Source: Hyalangium gracile
Lineage (GTDB): Bacteria > Myxococcota > Myxococcia > Myxococcales > Myxococcaceae
DNA: 64,000 bases
NCBI RefSeq assembly: GCF_020103725.1
Contig: NZ_JAHXBG010000008.1
Span: 248,001-312,000, forward strand
Direction: 5' to 3'
Shown in pieces: positions 47,604 to 58,286 of this stretch. The notes beneath the pieces are model-generated. The model searched no databases. It had not been told where the DNA came from and worked only from the letters and a program-made list of their open reading frames with translations. Every line of letters begins with the position of its first letter. Positions within the stretch are counted from its first letter, which is position 1. Position numbers and translations under genes: made by a program.

Positions 47604-49067
47604 TCAGCACGCCTCGCGTGACGGTGCGCTCCAGCGCTTGCCGAGCGCCCGCACGGCGAGCCGATAGGCCGCATCATTCTCCACGCGTCGCTCTCCTACC
47701 GAGGGCTGGACGAAGCAATGCGGCATCGCGCCGTGGTGCGGCGGTTGTTCGGGCCAGACGAACTGGAAGGCGAGCAGCGGAATGCCGAGCTCCATCCCCG
47801 AGTGAGGCAGCGTCAGCTCCCATTTATAGCCGCTGGTGTTGCCGCCATGCGTGCCGCCCACTTCCTCGCCGACGAACAGCCCGCGATCCGTCGCGCGCAG
47901 CATCGAGGCGAGCTCGGCCCCGCCCGAGAAGGTTGCGCCGCCCGCGAGCACCACGAGCCGACCCTTGAACACCGGGCGCGCGCGCTCCCAGTGCGTCATC
48001 AGTCCCTCGGGCGGCGCATTGATGCGGTACAGGTCTCCCCCTGCTCCGGCGCGCACCGTCGCGAGCTCGTCAGCATCATAGATCTCATGCTCGAACACCT
48101 TGCCTGACAGGCTGGTGACGCGGAGCGCGTTCGAGCGCGAGCGGACCGACGCGTATTTCCGCAGCGGCTCCTCGACCAGGTACGAGAACAGGATGCTCTC
48201 ATTCGGCTCGGACCCGCCGCCGTTGTCGCGCAGGTCGAGGATCAGGTTCCGGGTGCCGCGCGCATCGAGCGCGTCGAAGATCGACTGGATCGTCGCGCGG
48301 AAATCGGCGCCCGCCGCGCGGTAGCGCCGGTTGCTGAAGGTCGGCACGTACAGATAGGCGGTGTCGCCATCAATCCAGTGCAGCGTGGCAACCGGCGACG
48401 GGTCGTCGGGCGGAGGCGGACGCGCGGCGACCGGCACTGGCGAGAGCCGGCGACGAACGACCTTTCCGTCGGGCAGGAGAAGGCGGACATCGAATCCAGC
48501 CTCATTGCCCCGCATCCACCAGCGGACCACCGCATAGCCGCGCCCTTCGCGGTCCCGCATCACGCCCGTCCGGTTGGCGCCGTCATGGGCGCTCACGCGG
48601 ACCATCTCGGCCAGCATCACCTCGTGTGTTTCGCCGTTGACCGAGAGCAGGCGCGCGCCCGCCGGGACATCCGCGGCATCGCCATGGCCCGTGGTGACGA
48701 ACGCGCCGTCATCGCGCCACAACAGATCGAGCGGGAAGAGCTGTGCCGTCTCGCGATAGCGACAGTTCATCCCGTCGCTGCGCGCGACCGACAAATGGCC
48801 CTCGCCAATCCCCGCCAGCAGTGGGCGCAGTGCCCGGAACAACGCTTCCTCGGATCGCACCTGAGGCAGGAGCGCGCGTGCCTCGGCCTTGCGTCGCGCC
48901 CAGTCCCGCCGGCTCTGCCGCCAATAGAGGGCCGGCATCGCGGTCTCGACGGCGGAGATGGCGAGCTCCAGCTCCTCGCGTGCCTGGGCAGGCGTCAACT
49001 GGCCGGTCGGGCATGCGAAGGCGAAGGAACTGGAGAACAGGGCCACTGCGACAAGCGAATGCAACAT
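47604..49067 (-). CDS. Secreted S41-family peptidase
   Basis: A 487-residue protein with a signal peptide (MLHSLVAVALFSSSFAFAC, cut near FA-C). The S41 (tail-specific/C-terminal processing) domain is recognised by NLILDLRDNGGGSEPNES and the nucleophile region VVLAGGATFSGGAELA (Ser), with VGEEVGGTHGG after it. No typical PDZ domain is apparent. It probably cleaves extracytoplasmic proteins. ATG 49067 is chosen over the GTG at 49085, with little to separate them. Codon choice and wording look less myxobacterial than the neighbours, which may hint at transfer. Confidence 0.8.
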   Translation of the reverse strand: MLHSLVAVALFSSSFAFACPTGQLTPAQAREELELAISAVETAMPALYWRQSRRDWARRKAEARALLPQVRSEEALFRALRPLLAGIGEGHLSVARSDGMNCRYRETAQLFPLDLLWRDDGAFVTTGHGDAADVPAGARLLSVNGETHEVMLAEMVRVSAHDGANRTGVMRDREGRGYAVVRWWMRGNEAGFDVRLLLPDGKVVRRRLSPVPVAARPPPPDDPSPVATLHWIDGDTAYLYVPTFSNRRYRAAGADFRATIQSIFDALDARGTRNLILDLRDNGGGSEPNESILFSYLVEEPLRKYASVRSRSNALRVTSLSGKVFEHEIYDADELATVRAGAGGDLYRINAPPEGLMTHWERARPVFKGRLVVLAGGATFSGGAELASMLRATDRGLFVGEEVGGTHGGNTSGYKWELTLPHSGMELGIPLLAFQFVWPEQPPHHGAMPHCFVQPSVGERRVENDAAYRLAVRALGKRWSAPSREAC

Positions 49068-49169
49068 GGCGCCGGTGATATGCACCTGTGCCTCACAGGT
49101 AGGTGGATGAGTCAGGCGGTAGGTGCCCCATCAGACCGCCGATCCGTTGTTGCCATTCCAATACGCATG

Positions 49170-51473
49170 TCAGCTAGCGCCGAGCACCGTTGCGAGTGTT
49201 CGCAGCTCCGGGCGCAGCTGCTGCTCCGCCGCGCTGCCGGCGACGACCACGGGCAGCATGGCGCCCTCGAGCGAGGCCTCCGCCGCCAGCCTCACCGCGA
49301 TGGGCGCCATCACCTTCGCCTCGATGAGGCGCTTGAGCGGGCGGGCTCCCAGCTTCGGATCGTACCCGTTGCTCGCCAGCCAGGCCCGCGCCTCCGGATC
49401 CACCACCAGCCTCAGCCGGCGCCGCAAGAGCCCCGCTCGCGAGGCCGCCTTGTCCAGCTCCAGGTCCACGATGCGCAGCACGTCCTGCTCCGATAGGCGG
49501 CGGAACGGAATCACGTGGTCGATTCGGTTGAAGAGCTCCGGCCGGAACGCTTGCCGCACCGCGCGCAGGAAGTCTCCTCCGGCTCGCTCGGCGCCGTAGC
49601 CCACGGGCTCGGACTGCTCCACGCCGAGGTTGCTCGTCATGCAGATGACCGTCATCCGGAAGTCCACCAGCCGCCCCAGGCTGTCGGTGAGCCGGCCCTC
49701 TCCCAGGATGCCCAGCAGCAGATCGAAGATCTCCGGGTGCGCCTTCTCCAGCTCGTCGAAGAGGACGAGCGACATCGGCTGCTGCCGCACGCGCTCGGCG
49801 AGGCTGGTGACGCCGGGGCCCACCTCCATCAGCCGCTGCGCCGAGCCCGGCAGCATGTACTCGGACATGTCCAGCCGGATCATCCGGTCCTCGTGGCCGA
49901 AGAGCGTGCGCGCCAGCTGCTTGGACAGCTCTGTCTTGCCCACGCCCGTGGGGCCCACGAAGAGCAGCGTGCCCACCGGCTTGTCCGGATCGTTGAGCCC
50001 CGCCTTGAACCGCGAGAGCACCCCCGCCGCCTGCGCGCATGCCTTCTCCTGCCCGATGACTCCCTGCGAGAGCTGACCGGCCAGCGTCCCTTGCTCGGCG
50101 GGGATCTCGTCGCTGATGAGCTGCAAGGGCAGCCCCGTGTAACGCGCGTAGGCCTCCGAGGCGTCGCGCGGGTAGAGCGTCGTCGCCTTGCCGCGCTCCG
50201 CCTGCTGGTCCAGCCAGTCCAGGAAGCGGAAGGCCTTGCCTGGGAACTGGGTGTCGCGCTGGAACATCTCCAGGTGCCCCACGAGCTGCCGCAGCCCCAT
50301 GGGGTGGATGCTCACTCGGCTTCTCCGCGTCTCCTGATAGCGCCGCATCAGCTCCGGCATCTGCGAGGCCGCCGGCTCCTCGACGCGGACGATTCGGAAG
50401 GGGCGCAGCGCCTCCGGGAAGCGCCGCTGGCAGCGCTCGAACTCCGCCTCCGTGCACTCGGCGATGAGGGAGATCTCCTCGCTGGCCGCCGCTGGGATGA
50501 GCAGATCTCCAATCGATGAGCCATCCGGCTGCGGCGCCAGCAGCGAGGTGAGCCGATCCACGTAGAGGTAGTGGTTCTCGAACGAGAGCGCGTCGATGAT
50601 CTTCAAGCAGCGCTCCTGCCACATGCCCAGGTACACCATGCCGGCCACGATGCGCTCGGCGCTGGTGCGCCAGATCTTCGGGAAGTCGCGACTCTTCTCC
50701 TCCCGCCGCCGCTCCGCGAGCCAGCGCGCCAGCTTCAGCACCGTGCTCGTCTTGCCCACCCCCGGGCCTCCCACCAGCAGGATGGACCGGGGCGGCTGCC
50801 GCAGCGCGTAGATGCGCCAGTCATCGAGCTGATCCCCGTCGTAGACGAGCGACGGTGCCCGGGGGCCCAGCGCTCGCGAGGTCAGCTCCTCGCCGATCTG
50901 CGTGAGCACCGCCGGAGGGGGCTCCTCGTCCGTCCCGCTGCGGAGCGCCTGCTCCAGCCCGCCCGGGTCCCAGCTCTGCACGTACTCCTCGCCCTCGTGG
51001 CGGAAGTCATAGAGGCCCTTCGGTTGCTCTCCCAGCAGCGCGGTGGCGAGCGCGTGCTGCAGCACCTCCCGCGCGATGGACAGCTCCTCCAGCACGAAGG
51101 ACCAGCCGAAGCGCGGCACCAGCACCCGGTACGCTCCGCTCTCCAGCTTGCCGTACACGTACGTCAGCTTGAGCGGGATGAGCGCCTTGCCGATGACCGG
51201 CCGCTTCTGGTGCACCGTCTGCGGGTGGACCTCCACCGTGAGCGTCCGGGCCTGCAGGGCCTCCTCCCACAGGAACCGGCCGAGCGCCGCCGAGTCCTCG
51301 AGCATCATGTGCCGCACCCGCGTCTCCAGCTGGGCGTACACCTCCGCCTCGCTGGTGCCGTAGGCGGCCGGGGCGGGCGCGTCGAAGAAGCTGCTCCAGG
51401 CCGGCAGCAGCCGCCCCGTGAGGCGGCCGTCGTGGTGCGTGGTGAAGTAGACGCGAAGGCTCTTGTCGGTCAT
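49170..51473 (-). CDS. ClpB-derived AAA+ protein, short form (third gene of operon)
   Basis: A 767-residue protein with an about 200-residue N-terminal part of its own, then two AAA+ domains. D1 has Walker A GGPGVGKT (about residue 235) and the AGMVYLGMWQERCLK segment equivalent to the ClpB D1 pore-loop region, but Walker B is altered (YLYVDRLTSLL). D2 is intact in its nucleotide site: GPTGVGKTE (about 507), FDELEKAHP (about 569), MTSNLG and FRPELFNRID. The canonical D2 pore loop GYVG is replaced (EVGPGVTS). There is no Clp N-domain, no ClpB middle coiled coil and no ClpP-docking loop that I can see. It starts 4 bp after the preceding gene. Confidence 0.85.
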   Translation of the reverse strand: MTDKSLRVYFTTHHDGRLTGRLLPAWSSFFDAPAPAAYGTSEAEVYAQLETRVRHMMLEDSAALGRFLWEEALQARTLTVEVHPQTVHQKRPVIGKALIPLKLTYVYGKLESGAYRVLVPRFGWSFVLEELSIAREVLQHALATALLGEQPKGLYDFRHEGEEYVQSWDPGGLEQALRSGTDEEPPPAVLTQIGEELTSRALGPRAPSLVYDGDQLDDWRIYALRQPPRSILLVGGPGVGKTSTVLKLARWLAERRREEKSRDFPKIWRTSAERIVAGMVYLGMWQERCLKIIDALSFENHYLYVDRLTSLLAPQPDGSSIGDLLIPAAASEEISLIAECTEAEFERCQRRFPEALRPFRIVRVEEPAASQMPELMRRYQETRRSRVSIHPMGLRQLVGHLEMFQRDTQFPGKAFRFLDWLDQQAERGKATTLYPRDASEAYARYTGLPLQLISDEIPAEQGTLAGQLSQGVIGQEKACAQAAGVLSRFKAGLNDPDKPVGTLLFVGPTGVGKTELSKQLARTLFGHEDRMIRLDMSEYMLPGSAQRLMEVGPGVTSLAERVRQQPMSLVLFDELEKAHPEIFDLLLGILGEGRLTDSLGRLVDFRMTVICMTSNLGVEQSEPVGYGAERAGGDFLRAVRQAFRPELFNRIDHVIPFRRLSEQDVLRIVDLELDKAASRAGLLRRRLRLVVDPEARAWLASNGYDPKLGARPLKRLIEAKVMAPIAVRLAAEASLEGAMLPVVVAGSAAEQQLRPELRTLATVLGAS

Positions 51474-51477
51474 GGCT

Positions 51478-54400
51478 TCAGCGGCTCCCGTCCTTCGGGT
51501 TCTGGGTCATCCGCACCCGCCAGAGCGCCGGCAGGGCCTCGCCGGGAGTGAACACGCGGTGGGTGCCGCTGTGGGTGAGCAGGTAGTCCTCCAGCTCCAG
51601 GTTCGACACCGTGTTGGGTCGGGTGGGGGGCTCGAACCGGTAGGAGCGCACCACCGGGACGGCCGCCTCGGGGTTCTCCGGCAGTGGGCTGCGCCCCTCC
51701 TGGCGCGCCTTGTGGAACGCCTGGAGCTTCGCGTCGTGCTGGGTGATGAGCTCCAGCGGCGCGGATGCCGCGGCGTCGTGCACGCGCGCCTTGACCACCT
51801 CCGGCAGGCGTCCCGAGGACTGCCAGACGTGCAGCCCGGCCTCGCCCTCGAAGAAGGGCCGCACCCCGGGGCCCACCAGCTTGAGCGCGATGTGCACCGG
51901 CTCCATCGCCGACTGCGCCCACTGCTCCAGCTCCCGAGGCCCGCCCGACATGAGCGCGCCCCCCGGAAAGCGGACGGCGAAGGACTCCACCTCGCCGCGC
52001 GCGCTGGAGTAGGCCTCGAAGAGCCATGAGGCCAGCCACGAGCCGGTGTCTGTCTGCTGCCTCCACTGGCCGAGCGGGAGCAGCTCCAGCGTGATGGAGT
52101 GCTGATCCGAGTGGGACAGAGCCCTCAGGATGCGCCGCAGGAAGTAGACCTCCGCCAGCGCGTCCAGCAGCTGCTCGCGCGAGACGACCCGCACCGGCTC
52201 GAAGGCCCGCCGATCGAAGAGGCGGATGCGCCCCATGATGCCCTTCTCCGCATCCGAGGGGTGGTCCTCGATGCCGAAGCGCTCCACCTCGATCATCTCC
52301 CGCGCCTCCTCCTCGGGCGCTCGCGCGAGCGCCTCCAGCCGCCCCTCGAACTCCTCCAGGTGCAGCCGCATCGCGTCCAGCGTGTAGAGCGACTCGGCGT
52401 GGTCCCTCTCGCCGGCCTGCAGCCTCGCGAGGTGGAAGCGGACCTGCTCGGACAGCGCGCCCAGGTTCTCGCTCCTCCGGATGCGCTGCACCTCCTCGCG
52501 CACCTCCAGCACCTTCTCGCGCAGCTTCGCCACCGGGAGCGACAGCAGGGGCTCGAGCGCGAAGCCCTCCGTCACCGGCTCGCGCGGCACCAGCGCGTCC
52601 GCCTGCACCTCGAAGCGTCCGTCCAGGGTGTAGAGCTGGAACAGCCGCATCAGCGACTGCGGCCCGCGGATGATGGCCTCCGAGAGCACCTGGCCGACCT
52701 TCTCCTCCAGGTAGCGCTTGAGCGGCCGCGCGCCCAGCGTGGCGTCGAAGGACTCCTCCACGATGCGCCGCTTCACCGCGTCATCCGCCGAGACGAAGAT
52801 GTTGCGCGACGTCAGCCCGCGCCGCGCCAGCAGCCGCGCCAGCTCCTTCTCCACCACCTTCTCCCCGGACTCCCGAGACAGCGGCGAGAAGTGGACGATC
52901 TGATCGATGCGGTTGAAGAGCTCCGGCGGGAAGAACTCGCGCACCGCCCGGTCCGAGTCGAGCGCCACCGACTTCGCGTCCTGCTGGCCGATGCCCACCG
53001 CCGCCTTCTGCCGGGCGCCCAGGTTGCTGGTCATCACGATGACCGTGTGCGTGAAGTCCGCCGTCTCTCCCGAGGCGTCGGTGAGCCGGCCCTCGTCGAA
53101 CGTCTGCAAGAGCGGGTTCAGCAGGGCGGGGTGCGCCTTCTCGATTTCGTCCAGCAGCACGAGCGAGAAGGGCTGCTCGCGGATGAGCCGCGTCAGGCGC
53201 CCCTCCGGCTGCCACGCGTCCCCGGTGAGCCGCGCGACGGCGTCCGGCGTCTGGAACTCGGCCATGTCGAGCCGCACCATGCGCGACGCGTCCCCGTACA
53301 GGTAGCTGGCCAGGGCGCGCGCCAGCTCCGTCTTGCCGGTGCCCGTGGGGCCGGTGAACAGGAAGACGCCATAGGGGCGCCGGGGATCCGTGAGCCCGGA
53401 GTGGATGCGCACGATGAGATCGCGCGCCACCCCCACCGCCTCCGGCTGGCCCATCACCTTGCGCGTGAGGGAGGCCTGGACTTCGTCCGGATCCAGCCGC
53501 TTGTTCGGGTGGAGCAGGAAGTCTGGCAGGCCCGTGCGGCGCGAGAGGTGCTCGAAGAGCATGCCGGAGTCCACCTCCCGATCGCTGCCGCCGAAGTCCA
53601 CCGCCAGCTCGCGCAGCAGGTCCAGCGCCTTGCCTGGCAGCGCCGCCCCGGCGAAGAGCGAGCTGGCCTGCTCCAGCAGCGTCGGGAAGAGCGTGGGCTC
53701 CCAGCTCACGGAGTGGCGCTGCTCCAGCTCCCGGGACTCGTGCAGCATCATCCGCAGCGTCTCGTCCGCGCTGGTGGGGCGCACGTGGAGCTGGGTGAAG
53801 AGCGCCGCGAAGGAGGGCGCGTCCGCCTCCAGCCGCTGGAGCTGATCCGGCGTCACCGCGCCCACGAGGGTAATCTCTCCTCGCGCCAGCGGCCCCTGGA
53901 AGAAGAGGGCGAGGTTGGCGTCGCTGTCCCTCGAGCGGCCGATGCGGCCGAAGGCGTGCAGGTCCTCGATGAAGAGGATGCGCCGTCCTCCGCGCGCGTC
54001 CTCCAGGAGCTTCAGGCAGCGCTGCTCCCAGTCGCCGACGTAGCTCATGCCGGCGATGATGCGCTTGCCCGCGAGCGTCCAGCTCTCCGTCACCTTGTCC
54101 AGGTTGCGGTGGCTGCGGAAGTCCTCGGCCTCGAGCTGGTCGGCCACGAAGTGCTTGAAGAGCGTCCGCTTGCCCGCGCCCGGCGGGCCCACCAGCAGCA
54201 CCGGCGTGCGGCGCTCGCCTCCGAGCAGCAGCTGGAGCTGCTCGCGGTACGGGCTGCGCGGCATCCCGATGTCGAGCGTCTCCTCCGCCGCCTGGAGGGT
54301 GAGGTTCGTCCCCAGGTTGTTCAGCACCTGGAGCCCGCCGGACTTGTTCTTCTTCTTGCCGAAGCGATCCTTCAGCTCGAGGTCCTCCCACGGGCCCTTC

Positions 54401-54939
54401 TGCTTGCCGAGCTGGTCGAGCAGCGACTTCGGCCGCGCCACGAAGGAGACGGCGTGCAGCTTGTCCTTGCGGCCGGAGCGCAGCTGCTCGAGCTCGTTCG
54501 AGCCCAGCTTCGCCCAGGCGCGCGTGAAGAAGGCCTTGGCCTGGTCCTCGAGGCCGAGCTCCGGATCGACCGGGAACCACTCGTCCTGGCGCGCCGGGTG
54601 GTAGGCGATGGTCAATGGCTCGGTGCGCGTGCGCATGCGCGGCTCGAGGATGAGCGGGAAGAGGCCGGCCAGCTTGCGCGTCTCGGTGTCGGCGTGGACG
54701 CGCTTGAAGTCCAGCTCGAGCCGCACACGCTCCAGGCGGATGCCGCGCGGCATCTGGAAGTACGTCAGCTCGCGCACCGGCAGCTCGCCGATGACGGTCC
54801 GCAGCTCATCCACGAGCTTGCGCTGCAGCTTGACGGAGTTGCGCCCCGAGCGCGTGCGCGTGTGCGGCCCGAGCGCCAGCGTGGTCCACTCGAGCCCCGA
54901 GGGCCCCTTGTTCTCGTAGACGGCGATGGCGAGGTTCAT
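51478..54939 (-). CDS. ClpB-derived AAA+ protein with release-factor-like C-terminal region (second gene)
   Basis: A 1,153-residue protein. Its D1 has Walker A GPPGAGKRT (about 250), AGMSYVGDWEQRCLK and RILFIEDLHAF. Its D2 is canonical except for the pore loop: GPTGTGKTE (about 529), LLDEIEKAHP (about 593), MTSNLG, FPPELFNRID, with GDAWQPEG where GYVG is expected. The last about 300 residues read like a peptide-chain release factor: a helical part, then ITLELLPLG...ASWLFEAY, HIALKLVGPGVRPFFEGEAGLH and LEDYLLTHSGTHRVFTPG. The GGQ motif that should follow the latter strand is absent (SGT). It overlaps the first gene by 4 bp (ATGA). Confidence 0.85.
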   Translation of the reverse strand: MNLAIAVYENKGPSGLEWTTLALGPHTRTRSGRNSVKLQRKLVDELRTVIGELPVRELTYFQMPRGIRLERVRLELDFKRVHADTETRKLAGLFPLILEPRMRTRTEPLTIAYHPARQDEWFPVDPELGLEDQAKAFFTRAWAKLGSNELEQLRSGRKDKLHAVSFVARPKSLLDQLGKQKGPWEDLELKDRFGKKKNKSGGLQVLNNLGTNLTLQAAEETLDIGMPRSPYREQLQLLLGGERRTPVLLVGPPGAGKRTLFKHFVADQLEAEDFRSHRNLDKVTESWTLAGKRIIAGMSYVGDWEQRCLKLLEDARGGRRILFIEDLHAFGRIGRSRDSDANLALFFQGPLARGEITLVGAVTPDQLQRLEADAPSFAALFTQLHVRPTSADETLRMMLHESRELEQRHSVSWEPTLFPTLLEQASSLFAGAALPGKALDLLRELAVDFGGSDREVDSGMLFEHLSRRTGLPDFLLHPNKRLDPDEVQASLTRKVMGQPEAVGVARDLIVRIHSGLTDPRRPYGVFLFTGPTGTGKTELARALASYLYGDASRMVRLDMAEFQTPDAVARLTGDAWQPEGRLTRLIREQPFSLVLLDEIEKAHPALLNPLLQTFDEGRLTDASGETADFTHTVIVMTSNLGARQKAAVGIGQQDAKSVALDSDRAVREFFPPELFNRIDQIVHFSPLSRESGEKVVEKELARLLARRGLTSRNIFVSADDAVKRRIVEESFDATLGARPLKRYLEEKVGQVLSEAIIRGPQSLMRLFQLYTLDGRFEVQADALVPREPVTEGFALEPLLSLPVAKLREKVLEVREEVQRIRRSENLGALSEQVRFHLARLQAGERDHAESLYTLDAMRLHLEEFEGRLEALARAPEEEAREMIEVERFGIEDHPSDAEKGIMGRIRLFDRRAFEPVRVVSREQLLDALAEVYFLRRILRALSHSDQHSITLELLPLGQWRQQTDTGSWLASWLFEAYSSARGEVESFAVRFPGGALMSGGPRELEQWAQSAMEPVHIALKLVGPGVRPFFEGEAGLHVWQSSGRLPEVVKARVHDAAASAPLELITQHDAKLQAFHKARQEGRSPLPENPEAAVPVVRSYRFEPPTRPNTVSNLELEDYLLTHSGTHRVFTPGEALPALWRVRMTQNPKDGSR

Positions 54940-57900
54940 CGCTTCGCCTCCCGGACCTTGTCCAGCTCGAAGGAGAAGACGCTCGAGTGGTCGAGCCCTC
55001 CGGAGCGCTCGGCCTGATCGATGTGCTCCAGCAGGATGAGCTCGAGATCCTGGAAGTAGCCTCGCGTGCCGAGGCGCAGCCGCCGCGCGCCGCTGCACAG
55101 CTCGAGCTTTCCGTCGGGGAGGTGGTCGCGGACGGCGGGCATGAGCCGGAGCTCCTTGAGGGGTGGCGGCGTCGGGGGGAGGGCGGGCGCCTGCGAGAGC
55201 TCCTTCTCGGACAGGCTGCTGCGCATGGCCACGGGCCTGACGGTGAGCAGGGCCGGCTCCTCGCTTCCTCCCGCAGGCGGCAGGCGGTGCAGCCCCGCCT
55301 CGAGCGCGAGGAACACCCCGGCGTTCGGTCCGCGCACCGACAGCAGCAGCTCGCCGAAGGTCCGCGTGGGGCTGGCCACCGCCTGCTGGAGGGGCTCGAG
55401 CGGGAGGGGATCGCCCCACTTGCGCTTGCGCTCACTGGTCTTCAGCGTCACGGACGGGCGTCCGTCCATCACCCACCCTCGTCGGGGCGCGTCCTCGAGC
55501 AGCGGCAGGAGCCAGTGCCGGAAGGCGCGGCCGTCGCCGTTCTCCTGGACCACCAGGGTGATGTCGTCGCGCCGGGGCACCAGCGCGAGCAGCACCGCGG
55601 GCAGCTGTCTGCGAAGGGCCTCGAGCTGCTGGTTGGCGTCCTCCACGAAGGGCTCGACGTCCTGTTGCTCGAACAGCGCCAGCAGCGCCAGCTCCTCGGC
55701 GGCCACGAGCGCCGCGCGCAGCTGCTGCACGCTCCGCCACAGCCCGTCCAGCCGGTGATGCTCTCCGCGCAGCTGGCCCAGGGTGACGGCGCCGGGGCCT
55801 CGCTCGTCCCGGTCGCCCTGGGAGAGCTGGGCCACCAGGAAGCCGATCTGCTCCTCGAGCTGCACCACCGCGTCGAGCCGGAAGATGGCGTCGATGGCCC
55901 CCCGCTCCGCCCGGAGCTCGCGCACCAGGTAGAGCTGGTTGCGCGTCGCCCGGGGGCTGCCCTTCTGGAGCGCCACGGACAGCGCGCCGTCGCGCAGGGT
56001 GACGTCCACGCGTCCTCCCTGGAGCTCCGGTCCCGCCGCCGAGAGGGCTCGGGCCACGGGGACGACGAGCTGCTGGTCCAGGTGCCGGCGCATGGCCCGG
56101 GCGCCGTAGGCCTCCTGGTAGCCGGAGGCGGCCAGGGCAGCGGTGGCCTCGGGCGGCAGGTCAAGGGTGATGCCGCGCTGGATGAGCCCGCGCCGCTGCC
56201 GCAGCTTCTCCACGCCGAGCCTGGCCACCTCCGCCACCTGCTCGGAGGTGAGCGCGTGGAAGGGGATGATCTGATCGATGCGGTTGACCAGCTCGGGGCG
56301 GAAGTGCCGGTGCACCTCGCGCAGGTAGTGCGTGGTGTCGTCCGCCGCCGCCGCGCCGATGCCGATGGGGCTGCGCCGGTGGGCCGCTCCCAGGTTGCTG
56401 GTCAGGATGATGAGGGCGTTGTGGAACCAGGCCGTCTGCCCTCGGGCATCCGTGAGCCTCCCTTCGCCGCAGACCTGGAGGAGCAGATCGAACACGGCCG
56501 GGTGGGCCTTCTCGATCTCGTCGAGCAGGAGCACGCAGAAGGGCTGCTGGCGGACGCGCCGCGTGAGCAGGCCCTCGCCCTGGGCGTTGCCGCGGATGAG
56601 GCGGTCGGCGGCCCAGGCGTCCATGTACTCGCTCATGTCGAAGCGGAACAGCCGGTCCGGCGAGCCGAAGAGGAACATGGCCAGCAGCCGCGCGAGCTCC
56701 GTCTTCCCCACGCCCGTGGGGCCCACGAAGAGGAAGGTCGCCAGCGGCTTGCCCTGGGGCTGCAGGCCCGCCTTGACCATGCACAGCGTCTCCACCACCC
56801 GGCGCACGGCGAGCTCCTGGCCGATGAGCTGTCGGCGGAAGTACGCCTCCACGTCTCCGGCGAGCAGGGCCCGGTCTTCTCGCAGGAGGAACTCGGGGAC
56901 TCCCGTCTTCAGGCTGAAGAGGGAGTAGACGCGCTCGCGGGTGAGCACGGGCGTCTTTCCGTCGCCGGTGCGCTCCTGCTGGACTCCGGCGCGCATCTCT
57001 TCATGGAGCCGGAGCGCCTTGCCGGGCAGGGCGCGGCTGGGCAGGTAGCGCTCGGCCAGCTCCACCAGCGGCTCCACGGCGTTGTCGGCCAGCGTCGGCC
57101 GGGTGGGCTCCGCCTGCCGCTGCCAGGTGACGCGGGCTCGGAGGGCCTCGCAGGTGGCCTTGGCTCCGAGCGGCTCCAGGCGCACGCGGCTCAGGGTGGC
57201 GAAGAGGCCCGGGTGCCGGCTCTCGAGCAGGTCGAGCGACTCGGGGACGAGCTCGCCCAGGAAGCGGACCTTTCCCTCCTCGAGGAAGGGCTTCATGGCG
57301 CCGGGCAGATCGATGGACTCGGTGGAGTGCTGGGCGAGCAGCTCGCCGAGGTTCTCGAAGTAGAGCACGGCGTCCAGGTCCTGCGCGGCGCGCATCACTC
57401 TCAGGACGCGCTCCTGCCACTGGCCGAAGCCGGACATGCCGGCGATGAGCCGCGAGCCGCTCGTGGCGTACACGCGGCGCTCGCGGCCCGCCTTGCGCTC
57501 CGCGCGCAGCCAGGCGTAGAGCAGCTCCGTCTTGCCGGAGAGCTCCGGGCCGACGACGAGCACGCCCTGTCGCTTCTCGCCGCCGAGCAGGTTGGACAGG
57601 AGCGCCAGCTCGGTGTCCCGGCCGGTGAGGGGCGGGCCGCGCCTGGACTCGGGCCGCTCGTGCATCTCGGTGGAGACGGAGAGGAGGACCTCGTGGGCCT
57701 GCTCTCGCACGAGCTTCTCCTGCAGCTTCTTCCGGGCCTGGCGGGCCTTCTCGCTGAACGCATCCGGGCGGCGGAGCCTGAGCTGCACGGTCTCCAGTGA
57801 CAGGGCCTTCGGCGGCAGCAGCCGGAGGTACTCGTGGGAGGTGGGCTGGCGGGCGGCGAGCAGGCGCTCCACGTCGGCGCGGACGAGCTCGAGGACGTCC

Positions 57901-58286
57901 TGGTTGCGGCCCACGTAGACGGTGTGGTCGAGCGCGGGGACGAAGGCCCAGGTCTCCTGGGGGAGCGGCACGACGACGGTGGCCAGCTCGAGCGTCTGGG
58001 GCTTGAAGAGGCGCTTGGGGAGGTCCGCGCGCGGCGCGAGCACCTCGAGCATCTCGATGCGGACCTCGTCCGGCAGGGCGAAGTGGGAGAGGACCTCGGG
58101 CTCGGCGCGGGAGAGGTAGTCCTCGAGGAAGAGGCGCTGCTCGGAGAGGCAGGCTTCCTGGGTGGGGGCGTGGCTCGTCAGCGCGGGCGCGGCGACGGGA
58201 AACGCCTGGTGGTTTCCGTTCCAGAGCTGCTGACAGAGGAGCGGGGTGGCGAAGTCGAGGGTCCCGGTGGCGTCGGAGGAGGCCAT
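54936..58286 (-). CDS. ClpB-derived AAA+ protein with release-factor-like C-terminal region (first gene)
   Basis: A 1,116-residue protein, first of the operon. The N-terminal about 230 residues are not Clp-like. D1 has a changed Walker A (GPELSGKTE, about 246), AGMSGFGQWQERVLR and AVLYFENLGELL, so its ATPase is doubtful. D2 is intact: GPTGVGKTE (about 518), LLLDEIEKAHP (about 588), LTSNLG, FRPELVNRID, with RGNAQGEG in place of the pore loop GYVG. The C-terminal about 340 residues again resemble a release factor (DITLVVQENGDG, LLLSVRGPNAGVFLALEAGL then HRL), without GGQ. AGGA lies upstream of the ATG. It is translationally coupled to the second gene. Confidence 0.85.
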   Translation of the reverse strand: MASSDATGTLDFATPLLCQQLWNGNHQAFPVAAPALTSHAPTQEACLSEQRLFLEDYLSRAEPEVLSHFALPDEVRIEMLEVLAPRADLPKRLFKPQTLELATVVVPLPQETWAFVPALDHTVYVGRNQDVLELVRADVERLLAARQPTSHEYLRLLPPKALSLETVQLRLRRPDAFSEKARQARKKLQEKLVREQAHEVLLSVSTEMHERPESRRGPPLTGRDTELALLSNLLGGEKRQGVLVVGPELSGKTELLYAWLRAERKAGRERRVYATSGSRLIAGMSGFGQWQERVLRVMRAAQDLDAVLYFENLGELLAQHSTESIDLPGAMKPFLEEGKVRFLGELVPESLDLLESRHPGLFATLSRVRLEPLGAKATCEALRARVTWQRQAEPTRPTLADNAVEPLVELAERYLPSRALPGKALRLHEEMRAGVQQERTGDGKTPVLTRERVYSLFSLKTGVPEFLLREDRALLAGDVEAYFRRQLIGQELAVRRVVETLCMVKAGLQPQGKPLATFLFVGPTGVGKTELARLLAMFLFGSPDRLFRFDMSEYMDAWAADRLIRGNAQGEGLLTRRVRQQPFCVLLLDEIEKAHPAVFDLLLQVCGEGRLTDARGQTAWFHNALIILTSNLGAAHRRSPIGIGAAAADDTTHYLREVHRHFRPELVNRIDQIIPFHALTSEQVAEVARLGVEKLRQRRGLIQRGITLDLPPEATAALAASGYQEAYGARAMRRHLDQQLVVPVARALSAAGPELQGGRVDVTLRDGALSVALQKGSPRATRNQLYLVRELRAERGAIDAIFRLDAVVQLEEQIGFLVAQLSQGDRDERGPGAVTLGQLRGEHHRLDGLWRSVQQLRAALVAAEELALLALFEQQDVEPFVEDANQQLEALRRQLPAVLLALVPRRDDITLVVQENGDGRAFRHWLLPLLEDAPRRGWVMDGRPSVTLKTSERKRKWGDPLPLEPLQQAVASPTRTFGELLLSVRGPNAGVFLALEAGLHRLPPAGGSEEPALLTVRPVAMRSSLSEKELSQAPALPPTPPPLKELRLMPAVRDHLPDGKLELCSGARRLRLGTRGYFQDLELILLEHIDQAERSGGLDHSSVFSFELDKVREAKR

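Follow-up and report, generated by a model that had tools for sequence, protein, structure and literature searches.

A conserved myxobacterial operon joining Clp-type ATPases to gutted release factor modules suggests a machine for blocked ribosomes

What is the function of a Clp-type ATPase that ends in a release factor without its GGQ motif or its codon-reading loop? This question is raised by an operon of three genes, A, B and C, in a 64,000-nucleotide stretch of Hyalangium gracile DNA (contig NZ_JAHXBG010000008.1, positions 248,001 to 312,000; hereafter the window). The genes lie head to tail on the minus strand, at window positions 49170-58286. A and B overlap by 4 bp and a gap of 4 bp separates B from C, and the reading frames thus agree with a first-pass annotation that described a three-gene operon with spacings of −4 and +4 bp. 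All three proteins have two AAA+ modules, D1 and D2, and two of them carry an additional C-terminal module with the predicted fold of a bacterial release factor. Our analysis suggests that the operon encodes an undescribed machine for blocked ribosomes. The genes and their release-factor-like modules are as follows.

54936..58286, minus strand: gene A, 1116 aa; N-domain, degenerate D1, intact D2 and an RF2-derived C-terminus
54993..55934, minus strand: release-factor-like module of A, protein residues 785-1098 (residues 28-341 of the structural model); helical domain 1 and the domain 2/4 superdomain, GGQ domain missing
51478..54939, minus strand: gene B, 1153 aa; N-domain, degenerate D1 (Walker A GKR), intact D2 and a C-terminus with the predicted release factor fold
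51481..52539, minus strand: release-factor-like module of B, residues 801-1153 (model residues 36-388); GGQ domain missing; assigned mainly from predicted structure
49170..51473, minus strand: gene C, 767 aa; N-domain, degenerate D1 and intact D2; release factor module absent

The C-terminal 360-390 residues of A and B contain nothing recognised by Pfam among the matches listed (for B, the best 25 of 41 families). Profiles built from the family itself were more informative for A. When a profile of 21 A C-termini was searched with hmmsearch against all PDB sequences, all 21 matches at E-values up to 10 were to release factor 2 (RF2), the best at 8e-6. A profile of 27 more diverse A sequences gave 23 matches, 21 to RF2 and two to RF1, with a best E-value of 1.9e-6. 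Judged by sequence, the release factor likeness of A's end is far beyond chance. The operon exists as two diverged types, T1 (that of the window) and T2 (that of Myxococcus and others), and a fourth protein, D, carries a related fusion elsewhere in the genome. Comparison of these groups with hhalign gave probabilities of 92% for T2A with RF2, 92% for T2A with D, 75% for T1A with T2A, 69% for T1B with D and 62% for T1A with D; E-values in such a set apply to a single comparison, and one row (L078), sorted as RF1 for want of an SPF string, may be RF2. The chain from T1A through T2A and D to RF2 therefore ties A to RF2 step by step. Signatures of RF2 can also be read directly: P-x-x-W in domain 1 (T2A and D), DLRTG (T2A) or DPRTG (D) in domain 4, and E-x-G-x-H-R in A.

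Predicted structures point to the same fold in both proteins. AlphaFold models of the C-terminal regions had a predicted local distance difference test score (pLDDT) of 88 and a predicted template modelling score (pTM) of 0.84 for A, and of 84 and 0.81, respectively, for B. In a Foldseek search of the PDB, ranks 1-48 of the best 50 matches to the A model were RF1, RF2, mitochondrial RF1 or PrfH chains (best E-value 1.8e-8), and the best 50 matches listed for the B model were all release factor chains (best E-value 5e-7); some rows name only the complex in the entry title, and for these the release factor chain was inferred. Whole-chain TM-scores were low (~0.2-0.4, normalised by query length), a probable effect of a changed angle of the helical domain. 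Fold alignment with VIA superposed the 2/4 superdomain of both models at ~3 Å over ~140-150 residues, with Z ~12, and skipped ~100 release factor residues, which we take to be the GGQ domain. Because unrelated helical proteins match the long helical part of A at Z 10-12, the diagnostic part of that model is the 2/4 superdomain alone. The VIA list for B runs from RF2 (Z 10.8) through an RF2 fragment (8.1) and PrfH (7.7-6.6) to the first unrelated chain (6.3). According to these models, the ends of A and B have an RF1/RF2 fold in which domains 1, 2 and 4 remain and from which the GGQ domain has been excised. The first-pass annotation had described release-factor-like ends without GGQ on two of the proteins and had named a structure search of both regions as a test; that search returned a release factor fold for A and B, and for A the PDB profile searches concur.

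The motifs by which a release factor works are missing throughout the family. We compared 155 distinct proteins (44 A, 48 B, 40 C and 23 D), having dropped identical rows and named A, B or C pieces shorter than 700 aa. GGQ is absent from all 44 A and all 48 B proteins, and a stop-codon tripeptide P[AV]T following HR was found in none of the 155. Only two SPF strings occur, one in a T2A and one in a T1B protein, both within the AAA part and outside the release factor module. GGQ strings do occur in one of the 23 D proteins, in a linker, and in 21 of 26 T2C proteins, in each case outside any release factor module. Those of T2C fall in the D2 pore region, which reads GGGQQGG or similar (e.g., L042:11403-13709), always 46 residues after the D2 Walker A motif, and hence are not the release factor motif. 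Net charge of the release-factor-like parts does not discriminate and was set aside.

The fusion of a Clp-type motor to a release factor is clearest in protein D. A search of 20 relatives with PF03462 (PCRF) returned prfA, prfB and D. The D of the window's genome is a protein of 937 aa (L081:7432-10245; contig C3, ~147431-150244) in which two Clp-type AAA modules precede a PCRF domain (Pfam E-value 1.3e-16; NCBIfam prfB, 5e-26). Its end aligns with RF2 at an hhalign probability of 99.2% over 284 columns, covering nearly the whole of RF2 including domain 4. D is thus a Clp-type ATPase followed by a nearly full RF2 body that has neither GGQ nor SPF. It keeps 14 of the 45 RF2-invariant residues of domain 1, 12 of 35 in domain 2 and 14 of 30 in domain 4, and has largely lost those of the helix-5 tip (1 of 7 kept), the codon loop (4 of 16) and the GGQ domain (4 of 56). 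The release factor body is retained, and the working heads, for catalysis and for codon reading, are lost. For T2A, MAFFT aligned the DLRTG stretch to release factor domain 3, and the T2A counts for domains 3 and 4 were not used. As an RF2 body behind a Clp ATPase, D links the families.

D is present in 87 of 195 genomes of the phylum, namely 86 of the 96 genomes of the window's family and one genome of f7. The search listed 96 genomes, from which nine with matches of ~50 bits, as in true RF2, were removed; GGQ and SPF were confirmed in the two of these that were examined, G156 and G139. Among plasmids, all 43 records matching D are below 60% identity, the eight rows listed being at 22-26% and two of them annotated prfB. 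An HNH endonuclease family, so named from the single member scanned, lies upstream of or near D in 10 of 23 loci. In the window's genome and four other loci the gene after D is RNase J; in three more it lies three genes off, and in the other 15 of the 23 it is not nearby, so a link between the two was rejected.

What kind of motor carries these modules? The AAA+ modules and N-domains of the trio map as follows; D1 boundaries are approximate.

56952..57635, minus strand: D1 AAA+ module of A, ~residues 218-445; Walker A kept, Walker B YFEN, pore loop MSGFG
56031..56750, minus strand: D2 of A (AAA_2 and ClpB_D2-small), residues 513-752; nucleotide site intact, GYVG pore loop missing
53575..54255, minus strand: D1 AAA+ module of B, ~residues 229-455; Walker B FIED, pore loop MSYVG
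52663..53379, minus strand: D2 of B (AAA_2 and ClpB_D2-small), residues 521-759; nucleotide site intact, pore loop GDAWQPEG
50154..50834, minus strand: D1 AAA+ module of C, ~residues 214-440; Walker B YVDR, pore loop MVYLG
49275..49982, minus strand: D2 of C (AAA_2 and ClpB_D2-small), residues 498-733; nucleotide site intact, GYVG pore loop missing
57660-58286, 54298-54939 and 50880-51473, minus strand: N-domains of A, B and C, mutually related, ~200 residues each

The order of D1 and D2 is that of ClpA and ClpB. Pfam detects D2 in A, B and C as AAA_2 at E-values of ~1e-40, together with the D2-small domain, and gives weak signals for D1. In the window's proteins the D2 Walker A and B motifs, arginine finger and sensor 2 are intact, and in D1 each protein has a degenerate Walker B motif; only B departs from the Walker A consensus of D1, with GKR. 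These motifs bear out the earlier description of intact D2 sites and D1 sites altered to differing degrees. The pattern holds across the family: D2 Walker A is found in 155 of 155 proteins, D2 Walker B in 154 and the NR-x-D arginine-finger pattern in 152, and the catalytic Asp-Glu of D1 Walker B is found in none (5/5 control Clp proteins have it). Pore aromatics in D1, with histidine counted, are present in 48/48 B, 40/40 C and 34/44 A proteins and in 0/23 D (3/5 controls). The D2 loop has an aromatic residue of some kind in 23/23 D, 17/18 T1B and 14/26 T2A proteins; such residues are scarce in T1A (0/18), T2B (1/30), T1C (0/14) and T2C (3/26). At the position of the IGF motif of ClpA, presumably the ClpP-binding loop, a loose pattern, [ILVAT]G[FYILW], matches 139 of 155 proteins and two of five controls; the ClpA of the window's genome has it, and its ClpB and ClpV do not.

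The earlier label "ClpB-derived" is too specific for these proteins. The two Walker A motifs are 276 (A), 279 (B) and 272 (C) residues apart, within a range of 268-300 among 132 trio proteins; the spacing is 281 in the genome's own ClpA and 402 in its ClpB. This ClpA-like spacing indicates that A, B and C have no insertion corresponding to the middle domain (M domain) of ClpB. Scores against the NCBIfam ClpA and ClpB models are similar, at 290-320 bits, far under the cut-offs of 993 (ClpA) and 1232 (ClpB). The label ClpA-like is at least as good. Pfam found no Clp_N at E-values up to 10 in seven N-domains (A, B and C, from the window and two other loci), and its one match to them was weak and unrelated. 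The first part of the N-domain matches Thermus TTHA1013, which we take to be HicB-like, weakly in the PDB (E-value 0.093); the N-domain of C has no PDB relative. One A protein, from a metagenome-assembled genome (L144:4863-9269), was called by the gene finder with ~330 extra N-terminal residues, 1468 aa in total.

The trio is conserved as a unit, as a phyletic survey proposed at the outset was to establish. The order A-B-C is kept in the window and in 20 related loci, one of which (L048) ends with its contig inside C. In 20 of the 21 loci the gap between A and B is −10 to +4 bp, and it is 566 in the one where B is broken in two; every one of the 20 gaps between B and C falls within −8 to +4 bp. 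Mutation or sequencing error has split the called B into two pieces in L046/L143 (the same contig) and in L160. In a wider scan with two degenerate peptide patterns, covering one genome from each of 84,980 species (contigs of at least 3 kb), 35 relatives were found, all but one from organisms named as myxobacteria, Myxococcota or Deltaproteobacteria, including Archangium, Hyalangium, Myxococcus xanthus, Corallococcus, Pyxidicoccus, Polyangiaceae and Sorangium. All three genes, sometimes truncated or interrupted, stand in A-B-C order at 27 of these loci, and contig ends truncate six more. The remaining organism name is Comamonas sp. KCTC 72670 (L154, BNCN01000006.1), whose trio is of the Myxococcus type, at 64-75% identity to the T2 reference, with flanking genes of M. 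xanthus-like sizes; this genome is probably mislabelled or contaminated. Profile searches of the 195 phylum genomes found A's end in 56, B's end in 54 and C's N-domain in 53. In the window's family (96 genomes), the 53 genomes that have A are also those that have B, and 52 of them have C; in the one without C (G050) the locus is at a contig end. Distribution is patchy, at 3/7 genomes in the window's genus and 7/16 in g6, but 27/27 in g19, the genus group with Myxococcus and Pyxidicoccus.

Do the two types descend from one trio? When N-domain profiles are compared across types, the partner at the same position is the best match in six of six cases (T1A-T2A 96%, T1B-T2B 96%, T1C-T2C 93%), which favours one ancestral trio as far as sequence can tell. 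Rival pairings are close, T2A-T1B at 94.5%, and within T2 the T2A-T2C pairing is higher still at 97%. BLAST pairing of the two types did not match the C genes to each other. Trees built from the AAA modules recover each of the six trio groups, D and the Clp controls as a coherent group, but with long branches and low support they do not decide how these groups pair. An origin in mobile elements is ruled against, since B's D1 has no relative in viral contigs and A's C-terminus has no match in plasmids, the plasmid matches of D being of low identity.

No family of neighbouring genes recurs in more than four of the 21 loci, so the trio is a stand-alone cassette. In the window, an S41 peptidase gene (longest reading frame, 47604-49085) lies on the same strand, 84 bp downstream of C. 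We considered it as a fourth gene of the operon and rejected it: it is present in one of seven genomes of the genus, the window's own, with no relative at E-values up to 1e-50 in the other six, and is not beside the other trios examined.

A link between the trio and translation is favoured by data from M. xanthus. In a published RNA-seq study of strain DK1622, an operon annotated as Clp ATPase subunits, MXAN_4823-4825, is reported to be induced by chloramphenicol, with log2 fold changes of 3.57, 2.67 and 2.61 (~6-12-fold) at 8 h and of 1.47, 2.17 and 1.92 in the Cm5_36h sample (PMC6617876). Another paper gives DK1622 eight clpA/B/C copies and names MXAN_4832 as clpC (PMC11423568). In three Myxococcus-type loci (L043, L050 and L145), the trio is followed by five genes and then by another Clp gene. 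Among the strong AAA_2 matches of M. xanthus AM003, three Clp-type frames are adjacent only in the trio, and a Clp frame of 907 aa lies ~6 kb beyond it. Because the gene order in T2 loci and in AM003 agrees with that of DK1622, we infer that the trio is very probably MXAN_4823-4825.

Our preferred interpretation, which we consider about evenly poised between right and wrong, is that the three genes specify a machine for translation stress, built from ClpA-like double-ring ATPase subunits that probably form one mixed ring and that dock on blocked ribosomes through the gutted RF2 modules of A and B. The helical domain 1 and the 2/4 superdomain of RF2 are the part that enters the A site and contacts the stalk base, and these are the parts kept in the models of A and B. 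When translation is blocked, the operon would be induced, as the published data on the very probable M. xanthus trio suggest, and A, B and C would assemble into one mixed ring. The gutted modules would then attach to the blocked ribosome, either directly or through a release or rescue factor present there, with neither codon reading nor peptidyl-tRNA hydrolysis. D1 would form a nucleotide-holding ring, mostly with pore aromatics, and D2 would hydrolyse ATP to remodel or free the bound complex; a substrate might be handed to ClpP. We infer docking, the mixed ring, remodelling and ClpP hand-over; ribosome docking of the A and B modules is plausible, if unproven. More tentatively, and with somewhat less than even confidence, we suggest by analogy that the trio is a bacterial counterpart of Dom34/Pelota and its ATPase, in which a mixed Clp ring would carry a built-in gutted release factor as a codon-independent A-site ligand and would use ATP to split blocked ribosomes, to remove a factor or tRNA trapped on them or to pass the product on to ClpP; D would be the core relative and the trio its stress-induced form. 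The first-pass annotation had proposed a translation quality control or conflict system that "pulls on a stuck product". The reported chloramphenicol induction of the very probable M. xanthus trio favours the link to translation; the pulling, as worded, is doubtful, since the gripping loop of D2 is gone.

Several observations weigh against our preferred interpretation. The GYVG pore loop of D2 is kept in 0/155 family proteins (5/5 controls have it), which makes ordinary threading unlikely. GGQ and the codon-reading elements are the best-known ribosome contacts of a release factor, so that a fold without them may serve something else. B is tied to release factors weakly by sequence and mainly by predicted structure: its C-terminal sequence profile found no release factor in the PDB, and hhalign gave 2.4% for T2B-D, 0.3% for T1B-RF2 and 0.2% for T2B-RF2. 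Even for A, the window's own type compared alone with RF2 reached 21.6%. Two of the 35 loci (L137, from Sorangium, and L138) have A and B without an adjacent C, as tblastn agrees, and with no neighbour family recurring in more than four of 21 loci, genomic context gives no ribosome link. MXAN_4832, another Clp gene, is also up, with a log2 fold change of 1.19 at 8 h, and the authors suggest degradation of unfolded proteins (PMC6617876). Induction by chloramphenicol could be a general proteostasis response.

These points bear most directly on the main rival explanation, that the trio is a proteostasis ATPase which is induced by general protein stress and has reused the RF2 fold only as a scaffold, or as an adaptor to partners other than the ribosome. 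We regard this as rather unlikely. In its favour, the codon loop and GGQ are lost, D keeps the residues of the core fold more than those of the reading parts, a ClpP-loop-like motif is found by loose pattern in 139/155 proteins, and the authors of PMC6617876 read the induction in this way. Set against this, domains 1, 2 and 4 of RF2 are kept in A, in B and in the separate fusion D, which is surprising for an arbitrary scaffold, and the usual grip of an unfolding enzyme, the D2 GYVG loop, is absent.

We consider it improbable that the trio is a conflict system, directed at phages or competitors, that acts on ribosomes or guards them. Its patchiness within genera (three of the seven genomes in the window's own) and its varying flanking genes would fit, as would PADLOC matches to DolB and PDC-M37B. 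However, the same PADLOC models score about equally high or higher on the genome's ordinary ClpA, ClpV and ClpB and are thus generic, and we dropped the defence reading drawn from them. Pfam recognises no effector domain in A, B or C; viral contigs hold no relative of B's D1 and plasmids no match to A's C-terminus; and all 27 g19 genomes carry the trio. Far less probable still is a role in secretion, as for the ATPase ClpV (TssH). On the M. xanthus AM003 contig that carries the trio, a Clp-type frame of 910 aa, presumably the ClpV of a type VI secretion system, lies ~16 kb away, but neighbouring families recur in at most four of 21 loci, and the ClpV of the window's genome is a separate, ordinary gene on another contig.

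How does the trio compare with known systems? Like ClpA, ClpC and ClpB (HSP100), the trio proteins carry a tandem of AAA+ modules in D1-D2 order and retain the D2 site, arginine finger and sensor 2; their spacing is ClpA-like, and a loose pattern matches a motif at the IGF position of ClpA. In contrast to them, A, B and C have no Clp_N by Pfam, no D1 Asp-Glu and no D2 GYVG, score far under every Clp cut-off, and are three different co-encoded subunits, two with a release factor module. The ends of A, B and D share the fold of domains 1, 2 and 4 with RF2 (prfB), and differ from it in that the A and B modules have neither the GGQ domain nor the SPF/codon loop, are fused behind a Clp motor and, as scored in D, have lost the helix-5 tip. 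Failing the defining features of Clp proteins (D1 catalysis, D2 grip) and of release factors (GGQ, codon reading) alike, the trio is placed in neither family.

In archaea and eukaryotes, Dom34/Pelota pairs with the ATPase ABCE1. Dom34, the closest published idea that we found, is a relative of eRF1 without the catalytic glutamine, in which a different domain replaces the stop-codon reader (PMC6514570). The likeness of the trio to it would be one of working, namely a release factor relative without catalysis or stop-codon reading, coupled to an ATPase; Dom34/Pelota belongs to the eRF1 lineage and has separate partners, whereas the trio has the bacterial release factor fold and is no kin to it. 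PrfH, ArfB and ArfA-RF2 likewise put bacterial release-factor-type folds on stalled ribosomes, and PrfH is a weaker fold match of B (Z 6.6-7.7). These systems keep or recruit GGQ hydrolysis; A and B do not have GGQ. Similarity to Dodola DolB is a ClpB-like D2 match that is about equal on ordinary ClpA, ClpB and ClpV, and no DolA-like Pfam match was found among the six window neighbours scanned. The genes themselves are in print as Clp subunits, given the very probable identity with MXAN_4823-4825 (PMC6617876). We found no Clp-release factor fusion or such a system in the literature searched, which left out most subscription journals, and the main text of a 2019 release factor survey contains no word beginning "Clp" or "PCRF"; within that literature, the remark of the first-pass annotation that it knew of no described system of this form stands.

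If our interpretation is correct, bacteria have joined a protein-remodelling motor directly to the body of a release factor, a design that we did not find in the literature searched. The operon would also be an apparent example of a two-ring Clp machine built from mixed subunits and would show, as a natural experiment, what the body of a release factor does without catalysis or codon reading. Because the trio occurs in the tractable M. xanthus, very probably at a known locus reported to respond to a ribosome inhibitor, these ideas can be tested now. In the myxobacteria that carry it, the operon would represent a new kind of translation quality control.

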